Source: Vulcanimicrobiota bacterium (GTDB taxonomy: Bacteria; Vulcanimicrobiota; Vulcanimicrobiia; Vulcanimicrobiales; Vulcanimicrobiaceae). From it: 38,262 bases of DNA. A program made the position numbers and the translations under genes. Where the stretch lies: positions 1-38,262 of the forward strand of contig PLED01000009.1 in NCBI GenBank assembly GCA_003136355.1, written 5' to 3'. How positions within the stretch are numbered: position 1 is the first letter of the stretch; each line of letters opens with the position of its first letter. Positions 29,190 through 37,133 of this stretch are shown in pieces. A model generated the notes under the pieces. That model did not search any database. It was given only the letters and a program-made list of their open reading frames with translations, and was not told where the DNA came from.

Positions 29190-32100
29190 CTACTGAAAGT
29201 TTCGCGACCGCACTCCGCTCACGACGTCGCTCGCATCGAAACTCCAGACTTTGCGCGCGAGCACGTCGATGCAGCCGCCCTGCTTCTGCAGCTTGCCTTC
29301 GACGATAACGGTCATCGATTGACGGATCGTGCGCCGGTAGCGTTCGTAGACGTCGGGCCGGACGATGACGTTCACCAAACCCGTTTCGTCCTCGAGCGTT
29401 AAGAAAACAAAACCCTTCGCAGTGCCCGGACGCTGTCGCGTGATCACCAGGCCGCCGACTTTACAGACGCGGTTGTCGGGCATCTCCGCCAAGCGGGCGG
29501 CGGGAATAACGTGCTCCTTTTCGAGCTCGGCGCGCATGTGCGCGATCGGTTGAACGTTCGCCGAGATGCCGGTCGACCAGAGGTCGAACGCCGTCTCTTG
29601 CCGCGCCGAGATTGCTGCGAAGCGCGCCGCCGGTTCGTCGATGTCCATCAGGCGGCCGAGTTCGCCGCGCGTCTCGCGTTCGTCCAATCCGCGTAACGCC
29701 CACATCGCCTCACGGCGCGAGGCAAACCACGGATCGAAAGCGCCCGCGACCGCCAGGTTTTCGATCGCTTCTTTTTCGAGCTGCGTGCGCAGCGCGAGAT
29801 CGCGCAGGTCCGCAAACGGCCCTTGGACCAGCGCACCTTGCAAACGCTCGCGCTGCGCTTCACCCAAGCCGCGAATCACGTGGAAGCCTAGCCGCAGCGC
29901 ACCCTGCGGATCCACAAAACTCCAAAACTCGCTGGCATTCACCGCGACGGGCTTTACCGCGACGCCATGGCGGCGCGCGTCGTTGACGAGCACTTCGGTG
30001 GAATAAAAACCCATCGGCTGGACGTTAAGGATCGCCGCGGCAAATACGGCCGGGTGATGACATTTGAGGTACGCCGACTCATAAGCGAGCAGCGCGAAAC
30101 TGGCCGCGTGCGATTCGGGGAAACCGTAGTCGGCAAACCCTTCGAGCATGTGGAAGAGCTGCTCGGCGGCGGCGCGATCGATGCCGTTCTCGACCATGCC
30201 TTCGACGAGCTTTGGATAGAGTTCGCGCATGCGCTCGTGCGAGCGTTTATGTCCCATCGCGCGGCGCAAACGGTCCGCTTCGGCCGGAGAAAAGCCCGCC
30301 GCTTCGACCGCCATGCGCATGCCCTGTTCTTGAAAGAGTGGGACGCCCAGCGTGCGCTCGAGCACGGGTTTGAGTTTAGGATGCGGATACGTCACCGCTT
30401 CCGCGCCGGAACGCCGCCGCAAAAACGGATGGATCATCTGCCCCTGGATGGGACCGGGCCGGATGATCGCGACCTGCATGACGATATCGTAAAAACAGGC
30501 CGGTTTCATGCGCGGCAGCATCGACTGCTGCGCGCGCGACTCGATTTGAAAGACGCCGATCGTATCGGCCTTTTGGATCATCGCATATGTCGCGCGATCG
30601 TCTTGCGGGATCGTATGCAGTTTGAGGCGCTCGCCGCTCACCCGTTCGTGAATCGCAAACGCTTCGCGCAAGAGTGACAGCATGCCCAATCCGAGCAAGT
30701 CGATCTTGATCAGCCCCAAGTCTTGCAGATCGTCTTTATCCCACTGCACGATGGTGCGGTCGCGCATGGTGGCCCATTCCACCGGGGCCACGCGCACGAG
30801 CGGATCGCGCGTGATCACCATGCCGCCCGAATGGATTCCCATGTGGCGCGGAAAGCCGTCGATGCGGCGGCACAACGCAAAAAGACGTTCGCCCAGCTCT
30901 CCCTCGAGGGGCGCTTTCAGATGCGGGTCGGGATTGTCGCCGTAATCGCGATCGGCAAAGCCGTGATAGTCGTGCGCGTGCCCGAGCTCAGGTTTTGCGG
31001 CGACGCCTCTTGGCGGGGGAACCTTTCGACTACCCCCTTCGGACGGCTCAGGATTATCTACACCCGTGGCGCCGGCCAGCGATTCGCGCGCATCGTACTC
31101 GCGCGCGACGGCGTCGACTTGCGCGAGCGTCAGGCCGATCGCTTTCCCGACGTCTCGAATGGCCGAACGCGTATGGTAGGTAACCACCTCTGCCGCCATC
31201 GCGGCGTGCGTGCGTCCGTAACGCTTGTAGACGTATTGAAGGACTTTCTCGCGATCTTGATGCGCGAAATCGACGTCGATATCGGGAATCTCTTGCCGCC
31301 CTTCCGACATGAAGCGCTCAAAGAGCAGGTTCATGCCGATCGGATCGACCGCGGTGATGCCGAGTGCGTAACAGACTGCAGAATTGGCCGCCGAACCGCG
31401 CCCCTGGCAGAGCACGCCCAGTTCGCCGGCGGCGCGCACGATGTCCCAGACGATCAAAAAGTATCCGGCAAGATCGGCTTTGGCGATCATCCCCAGTTCG
31501 TATTCGAGTTGGCGTTCGACGGTCGAATCGAACGGCGTTGTGTATCGCTCAGCCGCGCCGCGATAGACGAGTTCGCGCAAATAGCTTTGCCGCGTGTAGC
31601 ATTGCGCGACCGGGAAGATCGGAAATTGACCCGTCAGGCGTTCGAGCCGGAAGGCGCAGCGTTCCGCAATCGCGAGCGTATTGTCGAGCGCCTGCGGGTA
31701 GCCTTCGAATATCTGCGCCATCATCCGTGGCGCCTTCACGTAATGTTCGGCGTTTGGGCGAAGCACCGCGTCTTCGCGCGCCTGTGCGAGCGTCGTTTTC
31801 GCTTTAACGCAAAAGAGGACGTCGGCCAAGCGCGCGCCTTCTTTGGTTGCGTAAAAGACCCCGTTGGTTGCGACGCACGGAATATCAAAGTGGCGCGACA
31901 GCTCGAGCGTCTCCCGGCAAGCGCGTGCGTCGGCGGCGTGCAGGTGATGCTGCATCTCCAGAAAGAACGCCGGGCCGAAGCGCTCGCGCAAGACGGCAGC
32001 TTTTCGAGCGGCGGCATCACCACCGGCAAGGATCACCAAGCCGCCGGTACGGTTATCGAAATCCTCCAGCTGCAAGCGCGGATCGCCTTTGCTTCCGCGC

Positions 32101-32393
32101 AGTTGGGCGAGCGAGATCAGTTCGCAGAGATTGGCATATCCAAGGGCGTTTTCAACCAGCGCGACGATTCGATCGCCGTCGCCGAATGTGAGTTCGCTGC
32201 CGATAATTCCCGGAAGTTTGCGATCGGTCGCGGCTTTGCTGAAGCGCACCGCACCGTAGAGCCCATCGCGGTCGGTAAGCGCCAGCGCCGCCAGGCCGAG
32301 CGCGGCGGCGGCCTCGACCAGCTCTTCAGGATGCGACGACCCTTCGAGAAACGTGAAGTTGCTGTGCGCGTGCAGTTCGGCATAGCCGCGCAT
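29190..32393 (-). CDS. dnaE2: Error-prone DNA polymerase DnaE2 (translesion synthesis)
   Basis: A 1067-aa C-family polymerase that copies damaged DNA together with ImuA and ImuB. It begins with the PHP domain (YAELHAHSNFTFLEGSS, 4-20). The active-site aspartates are in PDIDVDF (370-376), with the third Asp in IKIDLLGLGML. QGRGSAANSAVCYALG, GVPLFQEQGMRMA and a C-terminal OB fold (about 965-1050) follow. Length is normal for DnaE2, which lacks the clamp tail of DnaE1. Residues about 446-463 are encoded by a palindromic repeat inserted in frame. The start ATG 32393 lies 3 bp after the preceding gene's stop. It is the last gene of the LexA-controlled operon. Confidence 0.96.
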   Translation of the reverse strand: MRGYAELHAHSNFTFLEGSSHPEELVEAAAALGLAALALTDRDGLYGAVRFSKAATDRKLPGIIGSELTFGDGDRIVALVENALGYANLCELISLAQLRGSKGDPRLQLEDFDNRTGGLVILAGGDAAARKAAVLRERFGPAFFLEMQHHLHAADARACRETLELSRHFDIPCVATNGVFYATKEGARLADVLFCVKAKTTLAQAREDAVLRPNAEHYVKAPRMMAQIFEGYPQALDNTLAIAERCAFRLERLTGQFPIFPVAQCYTRQSYLRELVYRGAAERYTTPFDSTVERQLEYELGMIAKADLAGYFLIVWDIVRAAGELGVLCQGRGSAANSAVCYALGITAVDPIGMNLLFERFMSEGRQEIPDIDVDFAHQDREKVLQYVYKRYGRTHAAMAAEVVTYHTRSAIRDVGKAIGLTLAQVDAVAREYDARESLAGATGVDNPEPSEGGSRKVPPPRGVAAKPELGHAHDYHGFADRDYGDNPDPHLKAPLEGELGERLFALCRRIDGFPRHMGIHSGGMVITRDPLVRVAPVEWATMRDRTIVQWDKDDLQDLGLIKIDLLGLGMLSLLREAFAIHERVSGERLKLHTIPQDDRATYAMIQKADTIGVFQIESRAQQSMLPRMKPACFYDIVMQVAIIRPGPIQGQMIHPFLRRRSGAEAVTYPHPKLKPVLERTLGVPLFQEQGMRMAVEAAGFSPAEADRLRRAMGHKRSHERMRELYPKLVEGMVENGIDRAAAEQLFHMLEGFADYGFPESHAASFALLAYESAYLKCHHPAVFAAAILNVQPMGFYSTEVLVNDARRHGVAVKPVAVNASEFWSFVDPQGALRLGFHVIRGLGEAQRERLQGALVQGPFADLRDLALRTQLEKEAIENLAVAGAFDPWFASRREAMWALRGLDERETRGELGRLMDIDEPAARFAAISARQETAFDLWSTGISANVQPIAHMRAELEKEHVIPAARLAEMPDNRVCKVGGLVITRQRPGTAKGFVFLTLEDETGLVNVIVRPDVYERYRRTIRQSMTVIVEGKLQKQGGCIDVLARKVWSFDASDVVSGVRSRNFQ
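31023..31055 (-). repeat. Palindromic interspersed repeat read in frame inside dnaE2 (worn copy)
   Basis: On the minus strand ATCCTGAGCC (31054-31045) is followed after about 13 nt by AGTCGAAAGG (31031-31022), the same frame as the intergenic repeat at 6361-6401 but with a changed centre. It encodes DNPEPSEGGSRK within a Pro/Gly-rich insert, next to the conserved segment GFPRHMGIHSGG. Confidence 0.55.
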
Positions 32394-32396
32394 CGG

Positions 32397-32891
32397 CTAG
32401 CGCGCGAGCCACGCGCTCAACATCGCGAGGTCCAGCCGCGCAAGCAACTGCGGACAGGCTTGGGAACAGACATGAATCTCGCGCAGCTGCGAGCGCATTT
32501 GCTCGCGCGAACTGCGGAAATACTCGTCGATGATCGGATGGGCCAAAAACAGTTCGTTCTTGACCCGCAAACTTTTGAAACGCCGGTGGGCAAACCGCTC
32601 GGCCGGCGGGTCTCCCACAAAACAGGCGCGCAGCTTCAGCCTTCCTTTATAAGCGGGCTGCAATTCCCGGATCCGCCGCATCGGATGCTCCGAGTAGCCA
32701 ATTTTCGTGAGAAAATTGGCCCCCACGAGACGAACGGGCGTAGGATCTCCCATGATCTCGAGCAGGTAGATGAACCCGTAGTTGAAGCCGGCTAATTCTT
32801 CGAGCAGCGAAAGCATGTGCGACGTGCGCGTGATCTCGCCGCTGCGCAGCCATTCCCACGCCACGCTTTGAAAGCGTAGACAGTCAGTCAT
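32397..32891 (-). CDS. GIY-YIG-related (T5orf172/Mug113-like) protein in the mutasome operon
   Basis: A 164-aa protein whose middle matches the T5orf172/Mug113 branch of the GIY-YIG nuclease fold: GFIYLLE (39-45) in place of GIY, KIGYSEHPMRRIRELQ (63-78) in place of YIG plus the catalytic-type Arg, then AERFAHRRF (97-105) with Glu98 and His102, and KNELF (111-115). The first 35 residues are helical, with no known domain. ATG 32891 is chosen: it overlaps the imuB stop by 8 bp (ATGACTGA). The dnaE2 start is 3 bp after this gene's stop, so it is translated with the mutasome genes. DNA cleavage or structure binding is inferred from the fold; no known imu operon partner matches it. Confidence 0.75.
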   Translation of the reverse strand: MTDCLRFQSVAWEWLRSGEITRTSHMLSLLEELAGFNYGFIYLLEIMGDPTPVRLVGANFLTKIGYSEHPMRRIRELQPAYKGRLKLRACFVGDPPAERFAHRRFKSLRVKNELFLAHPIIDEYFRSSREQMRSQLREIHVCSQACPQLLARLDLAMLSAWLAR

Positions 32892-34377
32892 AGGCGCCGC
32901 GCAAAAACCACTTTTCACCCTGTTTATAGACGCGCCAGAGCATGCCGCCCTCGAGCAGCACGTCGTATTCGTCGCGCGCGATATGCCCGCTGTCGAACCA
33001 GCCGTCGTCCACGCGCCAGGGTCCCGCGCAATTCACGACGGGCCGCGCATCCACACTGGCCGGCGCATTGCCGCGCAGCCTCACGGCCACTTCGCGCACG
33101 GGCAGCATACGAAGCTGCGTAGATGCGCGTCCTTCGATGACGTGCGCCAATGGCGCACTACTCAGTGGTTCCCTTCGACTGGCGTTTCCGGGGAAACGCT
33201 GCTCAGGACAGGCTCGCTCACCATGACAAACAAAATGAGACAACGTAAAACGTGATTCCAAAAGATGAGCCGGACGCACGTGCGCCTGATGCGTCTGGAT
33301 ATCTCCAACCGCCTGCAAGCGTTCCAACGCAATCGCCAGGGTCTGCGGATCGGGCTGCGTTCCCGAAAAAAGCGTGGTGAAAGTGCCGCACTCTTCCAGA
33401 CGGAGCGCCTGCAGCCGCAGCCCCGTCACCGGCGCATCGAAGATGAGGCCTTCGAGTTTGGCCCGCAAAATATCGAGCACGACGCGCGGATCGGCGGTCG
33501 CCTGCGCGAAGCCGGCGTCCAACTCGCGCAAGTCGCCGTTCTCGCACTCGAACGTCGTGCGCAAAAGCGCCGCGGCTTTTCCGGCGCGGCTCAAATCGCT
33601 GCAGATGCGCTCGGCCAAAACGCGCAGCGCGAAATAGACTTGCTCTTCTTGTGCCGCGCTGCCCTCACCGAACGCAGCGGCTTCGATCTGCAGCGCGTAG
33701 GGACGCGGACGAAAAGGCGCGGGATCGATCCCCCGTGCGCAATCGTGCCAGCGCATGGCTCGCGCGCCAAAACGGCGGACAAACGGGCCGTGCGGCAAGC
33801 GCGCCAGTTCGCCGAGCGTCGCAATGCCGAGTAAGTGCAGCCGTTCGACGATGGCCGGTTCCACGTCGAGCACTTCGAGTTGCAGCGGCGCGAGTAACTG
33901 CGCTGCTTCTTCCGGCGCGCAGATGCAGCCGTCGCGCACGTAGGTTGCCGCGCGCGCCGCGAACTTGTTGGGGCCGGCCGCAGCGCGCACCGGCAGATCG
34001 AAACGCGTCAAGACAGCATGCGCGCGCGCGATCCAGTCGGCCGCCGTGCCGTCACAGCCGCGCATCTCGACGTAAGCGGTACCTTCGGCCGTATCGTCCA
34101 CCAGCGGCGAAAGCGCGTCGAGATCGTCGAGCATGTCTTCCCATACGGTATGCGCGTACGGAGCATCGTGCACGAGCACGCGCGCTCCGCCGGCGGCCGC
34201 GCATGCCTGCAAGACCGTCTGTCCGCGACGCGCGCCCAGAGTGTGCGCGCGATCGTCGACCTCGAGCACGCGCCCGCGATCGGCTTTGTCGGCCAGAATG
34301 ATGACATCGCCGGAGCTATCGATGCCTCGCCGGGCCACTGCCAGCCGGAACGCGGGAACGTGCACGCATAACAGCAT
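32884..34377 (-). CDS. imuB: ImuB, catalytically inactive Y-family polymerase-like mutasome protein
   Basis: A 497-aa protein of the ImuB family, the hub that links DnaE2 and ImuA to the sliding clamp. It has the Y-family layout, but the acidic residues are missing: the start reads CVHVPAFRLAVARR in place of the DxDxFFAS motif, and the second acidic motif reads YVEMRGCDG. Helix-hairpin-helix region LHLLGIATLGELARLP; the C-terminus GPWRVDDGWFDSGHIARDEY and WFLRGAYD is the standard ImuB ending. Residues about 383-403 come from a palindromic repeat. The start overlaps the imuA stop by one base (TGATG). Confidence 0.93.
   Translation of the reverse strand: MLLCVHVPAFRLAVARRGIDSSGDVIILADKADRGRVLEVDDRAHTLGARRGQTVLQACAAAGGARVLVHDAPYAHTVWEDMLDDLDALSPLVDDTAEGTAYVEMRGCDGTAADWIARAHAVLTRFDLPVRAAAGPNKFAARAATYVRDGCICAPEEAAQLLAPLQLEVLDVEPAIVERLHLLGIATLGELARLPHGPFVRRFGARAMRWHDCARGIDPAPFRPRPYALQIEAAAFGEGSAAQEEQVYFALRVLAERICSDLSRAGKAAALLRTTFECENGDLRELDAGFAQATADPRVVLDILRAKLEGLIFDAPVTGLRLQALRLEECGTFTTLFSGTQPDPQTLAIALERLQAVGDIQTHQAHVRPAHLLESRFTLSHFVCHGERACPEQRFPGNASRREPLSSAPLAHVIEGRASTQLRMLPVREVAVRLRGNAPASVDARPVVNCAGPWRVDDGWFDSGHIARDEYDVLLEGGMLWRVYKQGEKWFLRGAYD
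33168..33228 (-). repeat. Palindromic interspersed repeat read in frame inside imuB
   Basis: On the minus strand TGTCATGGTGAGCGAGCC, TCCTGAGCA, a perfect 8-bp hairpin GCGTTTCC/GGAAACGC with a 2-nt loop (33182-33199), then AGTCGAAGGG (33180-33171). It shares CCTGAGC and AGTCGAAGG with the copies at 6361 and 31023. Its translation (CHGERACPEQRFPGNASRRE) interrupts the ImuB sequence without breaking the frame. Confidence 0.8.
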
Positions 34378-35039
34378 CAGGCGATTCGCAAACGCGCGAC
34401 CGCGCCGGGAGCGCTGCGGCGGTGTTTGAAGACCTGCGTGCAGACTTCATAGCCGGCCAGTTCGCGCAGCACTCCGCTGCCTTCAGTCCAAAAGATGCGA
34501 TCGATCGCGCACCGCACGCGCGTCGACGCAAAATATCCCAACTCCGTGCTCGCCTGTCCTAACGCTAACAGCAGCGCGTCCGATTTTTTCGCAAGCGCGC
34601 CGAGCCGGGACCAGACGGTGCCGCGCACGTTCACGGCGGGAAGCGTCACCAGTGAAAAAGCGCGCGAGCGCAGCAAGATATCCGCGCAGCGCGCGGACGC
34701 GAGCGGAGAGTGTGCGCATACGAGCAGCAGCCGCTCGAGAACGACCCCCGCGCGTTCCAGATCGGGAGGATAGAGCGTGCCGTCGTGAATCGCGGCCGCC
34801 AAACCGCAGCGGGTCGCACTCGCCAGCGCCGCGGCTACTATCGCGGTCCCCCCCGAGCCGGTGCCCCCCTCGAGGGGCGCGATACTCCCCCGAATGAATC
34901 CGCCGGCTAGCACGCGATCCAGTTCCGCAAAGCCGCTCGAGACGGGCTTCCCGCCGGGCTCCACGATGCGTCCCGCGGCGCGCGCATCTAAGCCGGCTTT
35001 TAGGCTCGCGAACGTATCGGCAACCGCGGCAGAGACCAT
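34377..35039 (-). CDS. imuA: ImuA, RecA-like mutasome protein
   Basis: A 220-aa RecA-fold protein, first gene of the SOS mutasome operon. Matches to the family: SSGFAELDRVLAGGFIRGSI and LEGGTGSGGTAIVAAAL at the P-loop (about 57-73). The Walker A lysine is replaced (GGTGSGGT), so nucleotide binding may be weak. The rest (YPPDLERAGVVLERLLLV, DALLLALGQASTELGY) follows the RecA-like core. ImuA is needed with ImuB and DnaE2 for damage-induced mutagenesis. ATG 35039 lies 8 bp after a predicted -10 box, so the mRNA is probably leaderless or nearly so. Confidence 0.87.
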   Translation of the reverse strand: MVSAAVADTFASLKAGLDARAAGRIVEPGGKPVSSGFAELDRVLAGGFIRGSIAPLEGGTGSGGTAIVAAALASATRCGLAAAIHDGTLYPPDLERAGVVLERLLLVCAHSPLASARCADILLRSRAFSLVTLPAVNVRGTVWSRLGALAKKSDALLLALGQASTELGYFASTRVRCAIDRIFWTEGSGVLRELAGYEVCTQVFKHRRSAPGAVARLRIA

Positions 35040-35047
35040 GGACCCTG

Positions 35048-35076
35048 ATCCTAATCGAACATATGTTCGATGTCAA
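35048..35076 (-). promoter_or_regulatory. SOS promoter of imuA: TTGACA-17-TAGGAT with LexA box as spacer
   Basis: On the minus strand TTGACA (35076-35071) and TAGGAT (35053-35048) are exactly 17 bp apart, and that spacer is the LexA box. Transcription would begin about 7 bp after the -10 box, essentially at the imuA ATG (35039). Repressor bound here would cover the polymerase site. Confidence 0.8.
35054..35071. promoter_or_regulatory. LexA-binding site (SOS box, Gram-positive type)
   Basis: A perfect 18-bp palindrome, ATCGAACATATGTTCGAT, contains CGAACATATGTTCG, which fits the CGAACRNRYGTTCG box of Bacillus and actinobacteria. It lies 15 bp before imuA and 64 bp before the divergent secreted-protein gene at 35135, which it might also affect. 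Confidence 0.88.
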
Positions 35077-35134: not shown

Positions 35135-35654
35135 ATGAACATAACGCGTTTCGTTTTCAGCGCCTGCATCGCCGGGCTCGTCACTTCGAGCGCCGCCGGT
35201 GCGGCGGAGCCCCCGGCCAAACTCCATTGCCGGCACGACCAAATTTTCTAAGGAAGGCACCGCGTACTGCGCGCCCGACGTTCCCTACGTGAACTGGTAC
35301 GCCGATCAGCTGAACAGCCCGCGGCGCCCCGCATATCTGCTCAGCCGCTATACGCGCACGTCCGCAATCGGCAAAGACGGCACGTTCAGCTGCACCAATC
35401 TGGCACGCGGGCGCTACGTCGTTTGGATTGAGGGCGACCGCCGCGTCGGCGGAGATTTTTCCGGCCAGCCTGTCAGCAGCGAAACCAATGCATCCGGCCA
35501 AGTCGTCGGACCAGGCGAAATGGGGCCCGACAAGAGCACGAGCAACCTCAACAAGAACGCTTATGGCTCGGATTCCGCTTCCAATACGGCGCGGTTCTTT
35601 GCCGGGCCGCAGCACGTCGTCGTTCGCGGCCGGAACACGAAAGTGGTATTCTAA
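35135..35654 (+). pseudogene. Secreted tandem-family protein, copy 1, frameshifted in a C5 run
   Basis: ATG 35135 opens a signal peptide (MNITRFVFSACIAGLVTSSA) that continues to AAEPP and then stops at 35251. The family body (NSIAGTTKFSKEGTAYCAPD, YVNWYADQ, DGTFSCTNLARGRYVVWIEG, GPQHVVVRGRNTKVVF) is open in another frame up to 35654. Taking one C out of the CCCCC run near 35210-35214 joins the two into one protein of about 170 residues. It is thus a one-base event in a homopolymer: decay, base error or slippage. Copies 3 and 4 downstream are intact. Divergent from imuA; 64 bp separates it from the LexA box. Confidence 0.7.
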
Positions 35655-35658
35655 CGGT

Positions 35659-35988
35659 GTGAATCGCCTCGCACTTCTGTGCGTTTTGATCGCGTGCGCC
35701 GCCCCGGCTTCTGCCGCTCCAAGTGCGGCGCCGCCGATCGATCTTACGACGCTGCAAACCTACGGACGGGCAGCGGCTCGATCTCAGGCCGCACCGCGTT
35801 TCCCGGTCAGGCGGCCTGTGCACCGGATGTTCCTTACGTCAACTGGTTCCGATGACGGACCGGCTCACTATCAAGCCGGCTACTCAGGTTCACTACCGGC
35901 AATGACCGAGCGCGTGAAGATAAGGCGCTTGCGCGTTCTTCCACAGCACGTGTTCCTCGAGACAACTCTTACGCGAGTGTATTTTTGA
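35659..35988 (+). pseudogene. Secreted tandem-family protein, copy 2, decayed
   Basis: GTG 35659 starts a good signal peptide (LALLCVLIACAAPASAAPS) and the family block PPIDLTTLQTYGR. There the frame is lost; with one extra G the sequence would go on as GSGSISGRTAF, then CAPDVPYVNWF, and hit a TGA. Later only fragments remain, ending with PQHVFLETTLTRVYF, which matches the family's last strand. At 330 bp it is about 200 bp shorter than its intact relatives, so it is truly degenerate rather than a single base error. Its last codon overlaps the start of copy 3 (TTGA). Confidence 0.7.
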
Positions 35989-36515
35989 AACGATCGCTCT
36001 TCCTATTCCTCATCGCGATCACGTGCGCCGCGCCGGCATTTGCCGGAAACACACCGCCGCCGATCGATGCGGCGGCGCTGACGGCATACGCGCACGGGAA
36101 CGGCACGATTTCGGGGTCCACAGATTTCGGGGGCGCAGTACAAGCATTTTGCGCGCCCGATATTCCGTACGTTGCTTGGTATGTTGAAAGAAGAAAGCTG
36201 AGTCCGAACGGCGACTTCGATTCGCGTTTGACCCCGTACGTGCACCGTGCCCGGCTCGCGAAAGATCGCACGTTTACTTGTGAAGGCTTGGCTTCGGGGC
36301 GCTATTTGGTTTGGGTGGAAGGCTACACACCGGACTTCCGCATCCCGCCCAGTTCCTCTAGCCGTCAACGGGAGGATCCAATATCGGGGCAAGTGGACCC
36401 GTACTACTCCACGGTGACCTGGACCGGGAATAGCCAGCGTGGCCCCGATCTGCTCTTGGTCGGACCCGAACATGTGGTCGTTACCGGAACCGGAGCGACG
36501 AACGTTACTCTGTAA
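35985..36515 (+). CDS. Secreted tandem-family protein, copy 3 (intact)
   Basis: A 176-aa protein from TTG 35985, which overlaps the end of copy 2 by 4 bp. Signal peptide 1-20 (SLFLFLIAITCAAPAFA), then PPIDAAALTAYAHGNGTISG, CAPDIPYVAWYVE, DSRLTPYVHRARLAKDRTFTCEGLASGRYLVWVEG and a last strand GPEHVVVTGTGATNVTL. The two Cys before and after the middle strand are conserved in copies 1, 3 and 4 and may form a disulphide. The 'DGTFxCxxLxxGRYxVW' pattern resembles carboxypeptidase regulatory-like (transthyretin-type) beta sandwiches, but I know no named family. Confidence 0.75.
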   Translation: MKRSLFLFLIAITCAAPAFAGNTPPPIDAAALTAYAHGNGTISGSTDFGGAVQAFCAPDIPYVAWYVERRKLSPNGDFDSRLTPYVHRARLAKDRTFTCEGLASGRYLVWVEGYTPDFRIPPSSSSRQREDPISGQVDPYYSTVTWTGNSQRGPDLLLVGPEHVVVTGTGATNVTL

Positions 36516-36530
36516 AGAGGCGGACACATC

Positions 36531-37133
36531 ATGAAAAAAGCTTTACTGTTCGTTGCGGTCCTGCTTTGCTGCACACTTGCCGCACAAGCTTCAACGGCGC
36601 CCGCACCGCCGATCGATACGGCCGCGCTGGCGGGATTCAGCTACGGAAACCTCACGATCGCGGGAACGGCAAAAGGGTATCGCGGCGGCACCGTTGCTTG
36701 CGCGCCCGACATCGCCTACGTTGAATGGTACATCCTTACCTCAGCGCGGCCGCAGGATTATGATTCGCGGCTCGCTCCTTATACGAAGGTGGTTTGGATA
36801 CATGATGATGGAAGCTTTGCATGCACGGACCTAGGCCCGGGACGTTATATCGTGTGGGCGGCCTGGCAACGCAACGGCCATCGGCAGTTCTCGGATTCAG
36901 CGGAACCGACTTCAATCGACGAGCGCGTCAATGCTGCCGGCCGCCCGCCGGCGGTAGATAATTCTTCGGGCGAAACGCTTCCGGCCGCACCGCTGTCGTT
37001 TCCACCGGCGCCTTGGTGGACGCAACTGCGCGGACGCGGCGCGAACGTTCACGAGGTCACGGTTCAAAGTTTGGTGCATAGCGCGCCCGTGCATATCGTG
37101 CTGACCTCAAAGCCGGCCACGGTCAATTTTTAG
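36531..37133 (+). CDS. Secreted tandem-family protein, copy 4 (intact, with insertion)
   Basis: A 200-aa protein from ATG 36531 behind AGAGG, 15 bp after copy 3. Signal peptide 1-20 (KALLFVAVLLCCTLAAQAS). Family blocks PPIDTAALAGFSYGNLTIAG, CAPDIAYVEWYIL, DSRLAPYTKVVWIHDDGSFACTDLGPGRYIVWA are followed by a longer Pro-rich segment (about 135-165, including LPAAPLSFPPAPWW) not present in copy 3. It ends with PVHIVLTSKPATVNF. Probably periplasmic or extracellular. Function unknown. Confidence 0.75.
   Translation: MKKALLFVAVLLCCTLAAQASTAPAPPIDTAALAGFSYGNLTIAGTAKGYRGGTVACAPDIAYVEWYILTSARPQDYDSRLAPYTKVVWIHDDGSFACTDLGPGRYIVWAAWQRNGHRQFSDSAEPTSIDERVNAAGRPPAVDNSSGETLPAAPLSFPPAPWWTQLRGRGANVHEVTVQSLVHSAPVHIVLTSKPATVNF

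Follow-up and report, generated by a model that had tools for sequence, protein, structure and literature searches.

Many bacteria mutate in response to DNA damage by way of the ImuA-ImuB-DnaE2 mutasome, and the origin of the ssDNA gap that it uses as a substrate is unsettled. In non-replicating cells of Caulobacter, NER incision has been implicated as the source of gaps, which are then filled by DnaE2 (PMC8102061). The main texts of three surveys (PMC3765255, PMC6511836, PMC12926913) mention no GIY-YIG partner of imu operons. Here, we describe an imu operon from a family of uncultured soil bacteria of the Eremiobacterota (Vulcanimicrobiota). Judged by its sequence, it is an operon of the known mutasome type with an extra gene, denoted X, for which we propose a nuclease or DNA-gripping role.

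Results

Operon layout and promoter

The window, that is, the whole stretch of 38,262 nt that was analyzed, contains all four ORFs of the operon imuA-imuB-X-dnaE2 that the original prediction had proposed, all on the minus strand (Table 1). The spacing predicted for X also agrees with the ORF coordinates: X and imuB have an 8-bp overlap, and the stop codon of X lies 3 bp from the ATG of dnaE2. The ends of imuA and imuB have 1 base in common, and imuA, imuB and dnaE2 belong to one unidirectional gene cluster, as expected for an SOS mutasome operon. DnaE2 is clearly assigned, with 1237 bits against the NCBIfam model of the error-prone polymerase (cut-off 939).

Table 1. Features of the imu operon in the window and of the protein encoded by gene X.
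Feature	Position	Strand	Description
imuA promoter	35048-35076	minus	TTGACA-17 bp-TAGGAT, LexA-type box as spacer
LexA-type box	35055-35070		TCGAACATATGTTCGA, perfect palindrome between -35 and -10
imuA	34377-35039	minus	220 aa, RecA-like accessory factor; NF033429 (ImuA) 1.9e-11, below curated cut-off; operon position
imuB	32884-34377	minus	497 aa, inactive Y-family polymerase-like; best Y-family model 2e-13, below cut-off
gene X	32397-32891	minus	164 aa, GIY-YIG-related (MUG113/T5orf172)
dnaE2	29190-32393	minus	1067 aa, error-prone C-family polymerase; PRK05672
X, N-terminal flank	residues 1-38		conserved
X, core	residues 39-138		GFIY 39-42, KIGYS 63-67, R73, E98, H102, NELF 112-115
X, C-terminal flank	after the core		conserved; H140-x-C142-x3-C146-x-Q148 and LDLxMLxxWLxR

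The -10 element of the imuA promoter ends only 8 bp upstream of the imuA ATG, so that the transcript is likely to be leaderless or nearly leaderless. In the relatives examined, imuA is preceded by the identical box in the same layout, and the palindrome is conserved at this position across the class. A lexA gene is present in the genome, preceded by the same palindrome. The LexA box of the imuA promoter, a perfect palindrome, and the presence of lexA support the predicted SOS control of X along with the mutasome. At the level of sequence, gene order and promoter together show that X is a member of a conserved operon under predicted SOS control.

The position of X immediately before dnaE2, combined with the translational overlap, could set the dose of DnaE2, and T5orf172 domains are also found in phage regulatory proteins. 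X might be a DNA- or RNA-binding regulator that controls either the operon or the change from the replicative to the error-prone polymerase and back, rather than a subunit acting at lesions. However, the control by LexA at the promoter is already complete, and in relatives lacking X, imuB and dnaE2 are still directly coupled. We consider a regulatory role improbable.

Sequence conservation of X

X scores above the curated cut-offs of two Pfam families, MUG113 (3.5e-8, 34.3 bits, cut-off 22.3) and T5orf172 (1.2e-4, 23.0 bits, cut-off 20), and both families were matched by all 15 members of the X family. Pairwise dN/dS values of 0.03-0.13 within close groups indicate that X is a real gene under strong purifying selection. 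No match was found among the PADLOC defence families. A similarity to HIV-1 protease chains was dismissed as a chance match, as it covers only residues 46-67, an insert confined to the genus of the window genome.

The GIY-YIG-related residues named in the original prediction are all present, and the putative catalytic set is complete. Twelve positions are invariant in the 15 sequences (G39, F40, Y42, K63, G65, S67, R73, E98, H102, N112, E113 and F115), eight of which (Y42, K63, G65, R73, E98, H102, E113 and F115) recur in MUG113 proteins encoded on Streptomyces and Brevibacillus plasmids and by a Rhizobium phage. The N- and C-terminal flanks of X are absent from these proteins. When the GIY-YIG catalytic set is placed on X by motif mapping rather than from a solved structure, it comprises the invariant Y42, R73, E98 and N112, with K63 in place of the YIG tyrosine.

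GIY-YIG folds can be non-catalytic. X might be an adaptor whose fold grips DNA or bridges ImuB and DnaE2, with the core residues holding the fold or binding phosphate. The family-specific flanks (the N-terminal 38 aa, H-x-C-x3-C and LDLxMLxxWLxR) are among the most conserved parts of X, as would be expected of docking surfaces, and the replacement of the YIG tyrosine by lysine points in the same direction. Moreover, ImuB itself is described as an enzyme that has lost its activity and now serves as a scaffold (PMC6511836, PMC12926913), so that dead folds would be normal in the mutasome system. However, no residue of the full putative catalytic set varies among proteins that are about 50-60% divergent, and the set is common to distant MUG113 proteins. 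Lysine likewise occupies the position of the YIG tyrosine in the restriction endonuclease R.Hpy188I (PMC2630997), and one T5orf172 protein, Odn, is a proven nuclease, the activity of which is abolished by mutation of the matching glutamate (PMC8263062). We consider an adaptor without catalytic activity less likely than a nuclease.

Predicted structure of X

According to the original prediction, a fold without the GIY-YIG sheet would speak against it. The predicted secondary-structure elements of X do follow the GIY-YIG order, and the best VIA-align match of the model was Slx1 (Z 4.9, rmsd 4.1, 92 residues; the Z is below the clear range of the tool), with UPF0213 also among the top matches (Z under 5). 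Support for the sheet itself is weak: one of five models reached a pLDDT of 73, and a Foldseek search with the model gave no match below E 1. A second prediction, headed by L007, a shorter homologue, yielded a poor model (pLDDT 53). In hhalign comparisons of X with three other GIY-YIG proteins encoded in its genome, GFIY, KIG and R lined up, but the alignments were very shallow and the probability of 6.7% was uninformative. Taken together, family matches, motifs and model suggest a core of the GIY-YIG/T5orf172 type.

Distribution and descent of X

X was detected in 15 of the 99 genomes of the family, representing 8 of its 38 genera. It is directly preceded by imuB in all 15 genomes and directly followed by dnaE2 in 14 of them; in the exception, G050, about 1.7 kb separate X from dnaE2. 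When about 85,000 GTDB species were scanned with peptide patterns for close relatives of X (remote MUG113 genes beside imu elsewhere could be missed), none came to light outside the imu loci of this family, and an IMG/VR search likewise revealed no close relative. The free-standing MUG113/T5orf172 relatives that were seen are located on plasmids and in one phage. That X recurs beside imu across 8 genera, whereas the scan revealed close relatives nowhere else, speaks against a gene that neighbors imu in this genome only and is scattered elsewhere. By sequence, X is the fourth, strongly conserved gene of the imuA-imuB-dnaE2 operon, predicted to be damage-induced, in one family of the Eremiobacterota.

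Nevertheless, most imu operons of the family lack X, including that of G048, which belongs to the same genus as the window genome and has undergone a clean loss, with an empty imuB-dnaE2 junction (TGATG). X is therefore dispensable, and, as it is not universal even in its own family, it is an accessory part. The 487-bp gap between imuB and dnaE2 in G115 was searched and contained no recognizable remnant of X. In two genus mates, G133 and G026, matches to the X profile (E 3e-8 and 4e-7, respectively) turned out to be stop-bearing frames and not orthologues of X; the remote match in G133 lies away from imu.

The patchy presence of X and the clean empty site in G048 would also be expected if X were a homing-type nuclease, selfish now or in the past, that had inserted between imuB and dnaE2 as a hitchhiker without a role in mutagenesis, all the more so as phages commonly carry mobile T5orf172/GIY-YIG nuclease genes (PMC10448857). 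However, homing endonucleases are characterized by mobile, scattered copies and erratic descent, whereas each genome with X has a single copy at one locus and gives no second strong match, and the main groups of the X tree agree with those of the ImuB tree. X has descended vertically alongside ImuB and was lost several times. The strong purifying selection, the lack of close copies in the viruses and plasmids searched, and the stop and start codons of X, which stay near both neighbors across genera, also argue against a hitchhiker, and the two stop-bearing matches in genus mates differ from X. We regard a selfish origin of this kind as quite unlikely.

The N-terminal region of ImuB

The ImuB of the window is the full-length form with an N-terminal palm/fingers region (residues ~6-76). 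This region is kept in every X-bearing ImuB, 14 of which were read fully; for the 15th, from G116, residues 1-90 are located on another contig. It is deleted in most contiguous operons that lack X. Strict tracking of the ImuB N-terminus by X was weakened in the wider survey: G048, G115, G058 and G097 lack X yet keep the region, as do many X-less genomes in which imuAB is split from dnaE2, and the co-loss amounts to about five independent contrasts, for which the phylogenetic contrast is not significant. The link between the presence of X and a kept fingers region is thus suggestive, but not significant.

Discussion

The explanation that we favor, and to which we give roughly even chances, is that X acts as an accessory subunit of the mutasome, docking on it and nicking or trimming DNA at gaps. 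LexA would repress the imuA promoter, at which its box is observed, and DNA damage would induce a single imuA-imuB-X-dnaE2 transcript. The overlapping or nearly touching reading frames would couple the translation of X to that of ImuB and DnaE2. X would then probably dock on ImuB and/or DnaE2 via its lineage-specific N- and C-terminal flanks and would most likely nick or trim DNA with a GIY-YIG active site formed by Y42, K63, R73, E98 and N112 or E113. By analogy with UvrC incision and Slx1, this cutting could make or tidy the gap that is filled by DnaE2.

In a more specific version, which we put forward tentatively and which may well prove wrong, X is a dedicated structure-selective nickase docked on the fingers/palm of ImuB that makes or trims the gap for DnaE2, so that a single SOS-induced complex would carry out both the incision and the error-prone synthesis; in lineages that lose X, the ImuB fingers would then tend to be lost as well. 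The kept or discarded fingers region provides a testable docking site, and the window genome and G048 offer matched natural controls, that is, sister operons with and without X in one genus. The results suggest that the mutation machinery of this lineage has acquired a component that cuts or grips DNA. With a gene of predicted nuclease fold within the operon, it can be asked directly whether one machine is able to perform both incision and error-prone filling.

Several known systems resemble parts of this arrangement. The N-terminal GIY-YIG domain of UvrC, incision by which can supply gaps for DnaE2 (PMC8102061), has its motifs arranged as in X (GIY, YIG, R, E), whereas X lacks the remaining parts of UvrC. 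The genome also encodes a UvrC-like GIY-YIG protein (686-aa frame), so that X is not a replacement for UvrC. In the structure-selective endonuclease Slx1-Slx4, the nuclease subunit, Slx1, acts on a non-catalytic partner and has a GIY-YIG-type core that is the best structural neighbor of X; however, Slx1 is eukaryotic, is only ~10% identical to X and has a canonical YIG, whereas for X we infer both the partner and the activity. The MUG113/T5orf172 proteins (PF13455, PF10544) have similar core motifs (GxxY, KIG, R, E..H..F and xExF), but X differs from them by its own N- and C-terminal flanks, its attachment to an operon and its vertical inheritance. The closest counterpart of the operon as a whole is the LexA-regulated imuA-imuB-dnaE2 cassette of Caulobacter, Mycobacterium and Pseudomonas, with the same gene order, a LexA box in the promoter and identifiable ImuA, ImuB and DnaE2, from which the operon described here differs in that imuB and dnaE2 flank a fourth gene, X.

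Operon organization and predicted SOS control

The gene order imuA-imuB-X-dnaE2 and the coordinates given in the original prediction were borne out, with all four genes on the minus strand. imuA and imuB overlap by 1 base, imuB and X (the 164-aa GIY-YIG-related gene) overlap by 8 bases, and a 3-base gap separates X from dnaE2. The identity of DnaE2 is unambiguous (PRK05672, 1237 bits versus a cut-off of 939), whereas the own-family matches of ImuA and ImuB score under the curated cut-offs, as expected because the phylum is remote. The genome comprises 2.5 Mb, and its nearest named relatives with X are Candidatus Eremiobacterota (Vulcanimicrobiota) MAGs.

Coordinates of the imu operon and of flanking or comparable features
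Feature	Sequence	Position	Strand
imuA	window	34377-35039	minus
imuB	window	32884-34377	minus
X	window	32397-32891	minus
dnaE2	window	29190-32393	minus
imuA upstream region, with the −10 element	window	35040-35076	
Tandem paralogues, small proteins	window	35199-37133	plus
Paralogue closest to imuA (ORF)	window	35199-35654	plus
Complete paralogue	window	35985-36515	plus
Complete paralogue	window	36531-37133	plus
Interval between X and dnaE2	G050, locus L083	6551-8283	
Interval between imuB and dnaE2	G115, locus L190	1796-2283	

Upstream of imuA, TTGACA is followed by the palindrome TCGAACATATGTTCGA, then a single T and TAGGAT; this is a predicted sigma-70-type promoter whose spacer is a LexA box of the GAAC-N4-GTTC kind. 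A search of the window allowing one mismatch, for which 0.27 matches were expected by chance, returned a single, perfect match, located inside this promoter. Across the family, imuA is preceded by this arrangement, which also occurs in relatives belonging to the same order and class. Furthermore, the genome contains one match to lexA, and the palindrome CGAAC-N4-GTTCG is also found upstream of that gene. Taken together, the box, its recurrence, the presence of lexA and the palindrome preceding it lend good sequence support to the proposed SOS control of the operon. The palindrome also lies upstream of a long frame that, read by eye, looks like an adenosylcobalamin-type (class II) ribonucleotide reductase, and of another frame that by eye resembles a DEAD/H-type helicase; it also overlaps the beginning of an ORF whose 204-aa product looks HNH-like. 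Together with lexA, these loci (L115, L116, L118 and L126, on contigs C6, C32, C53 and C94) form a candidate SOS regulon.

Only 8 bases separate the −10 element from the imuA ATG, and therefore the imuA transcript is probably leaderless. The −10 element is equally near the ATG in several relatives, so leaderless transcription of LexA-controlled imuA may be a feature of this group. Divergently from imuA, tandem paralogues of small proteins are encoded. The two complete copies have signal-peptide-like starts; the copy closest to imuA seems to lack an in-frame signal-bearing start and may be frameshifted.

Distribution and conservation of X

X was found in 15 of the 99 family genomes, spread over 8 of 38 genera; none of the other genomes in the 148-genome phylum sample has it. 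The genomes with X are without exception MAGs or single assemblies, all from uncultured bacteria. A GTDB-wide scan for X in 84,980 species, limited in its reach to close relatives, yielded 13 loci, every one of them in an Eremiobacterota-type MAG (one is labelled just 'bacterium') and on contigs already among the 15 genomes. Thus, X is neither confined to the imu locus of a single genome nor scattered elsewhere within the reach of the scan: it directly follows imuB in all 15 genomes and immediately precedes dnaE2 in 14. The exception is G050, in which about 1.7 kb, containing a 307-codon reverse-strand frame that is pirin-like by eye, breaks the operon between X and dnaE2, with X still adjoining imuB.

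The dN/dS of X in close pairs is 0.03–0.13, and in pairs with genomes G118 and G026 it is below that of ImuB (0.14–0.20). The main groups of the X and ImuB trees agree. X is a real, conserved gene, and these data on descent and selection make it unlikely that X is a selfish homing nuclease.

No GIY-YIG partner of imu is mentioned in the main-text passages searched of three surveys of imu neighbourhoods (PMC3765255, 11,123 genomes; PMC6511836; PMC12926913, over 3000 species), and the GIY-YIG protein in a paper that also covers imuB and dnaE2 is a different one, from Bacteroidetes (PMC8565304). Hence, the operon type itself is known, and what is new here is the presence of X within it.

Proposed gain and loss of X and the ImuB N-terminus

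A tree of 78 ImuBs places all those with X within one supported clade of 49 rows, chiefly contiguous imuA-imuB-dnaE2 operons. The simplest reading is a single gain near the base of this clade followed by several losses, gain and loss not being separable by the tree. Within the window's own genus, the sequence of G048 points to loss: TGATG links imuB to dnaE2 there, and no remnant of X is seen. In G115, 487 bp, near the length of X, separate imuB from dnaE2 without a recognisable X.

ImuB residues ~6–76, a stretch that in Y-family polymerases comprises the fingers together with the first strand of the palm, are kept in all X-bearing ImuBs (14 fully read; in the 15th, from G116, residues 1–90 lie at the end of another contig). 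Among the 35 X-less clade rows, 31 show a deletion of this segment, the four that retain it being G048, G115, G058 and G097; outside the clade, it is deleted in two genomes (G061 and G069). In an independent-pairs test, about two of five contrasts had the same direction and none the opposite, too few for a significant p value. The association is best regarded as a pointer to a docking site rather than proof of one. ImuB deletions as such are already known (PMC12926913). In the X-less contiguous operons (L057–L074 and L137–L152), the deletion is repeated and leaves the palm immediately behind an MLLC-type start. In another branch of the family (L157–L183; also L192), imuB lies kilobases from dnaE2 (~4–19 kb in G036, G117, G008 and G067, at L169, L192, L157 and L158, respectively) and the ImuB N-terminus is kept; this split operon is possibly ancestral.

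X itself carries flanks that the three outside relatives in the alignment (Streptomyces plasmid, Brevibacillus plasmid and Rhizobium phage proteins) lack. Near-invariant within the family are both the N-terminal 38 residues (C4, F7, Q8, W14, L15, S17, G18, T23, L27, S28, L30, E31, E32) and a C-terminal H-x-C-x3-C-x-Q ... LDLxMLxxWLxR. These flanks are natural candidates for docking surfaces, and H140, C142 and C146, perhaps with C4, are possible metal ligands.

Fold and proposed action of X

X scores above Pfam's thresholds for both MUG113 and T5orf172, two families that every one of the 15 members matches. Invariant among them are Y38, G39, F40, Y42, K63, G65, R72, R73, E98, H102, N112, E113 and F115; Y42, K63, G65, R73, E98, H102, E113 and F115 are also common to the three outside relatives. 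The AlphaFold model (pLDDT 73 overall, ~87 in the core, residues 61–130) places strand 40–46, strand 61–67, helix 70–81, strand 85–92, helix 95–104, two short strands and helix 119–138 in what is, as modelled, the GIY-YIG order. VIA-align ranked four Slx1 entries on top with low Z scores (4.9 to 3.8) and, further down, the GIY-YIG protein BH0048 (Z 3.4, likewise low), Foldseek returned no match below E 1, and a second structure model was poor. The GIY-YIG-related motif set noted for X is present; the fold is supported by sequence family and order of elements but not proven.

Upon DNA damage, X would be made together with the mutasome, dock on ImuB/DnaE2 and act there on DNA. In the preferred reading it cuts, which would leave a nick or gap for DnaE2. 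In Caulobacter, gaps made by NER are filled by DnaE2 (PMC8102061). Because the genome also encodes a UvrC-like GIY-YIG protein (686-aa frame), X would supplement NER, not take its place. The chief alternative is that X is a non-cutting adaptor built on the same fold. Cutting is preferred because X retains the whole putative catalytic set and because both neighbouring families include proteins that cut DNA. Like R.Hpy188I, in which Lys replaces the YIG Tyr (PMC2630997), X has a Lys (K63) at this position. Odn of phage ICP1 is, like X, a T5orf172 protein; it is a proven nuclease, and the Glu whose mutation inactivates it (PMC8263062) matches the conserved Glu of X.
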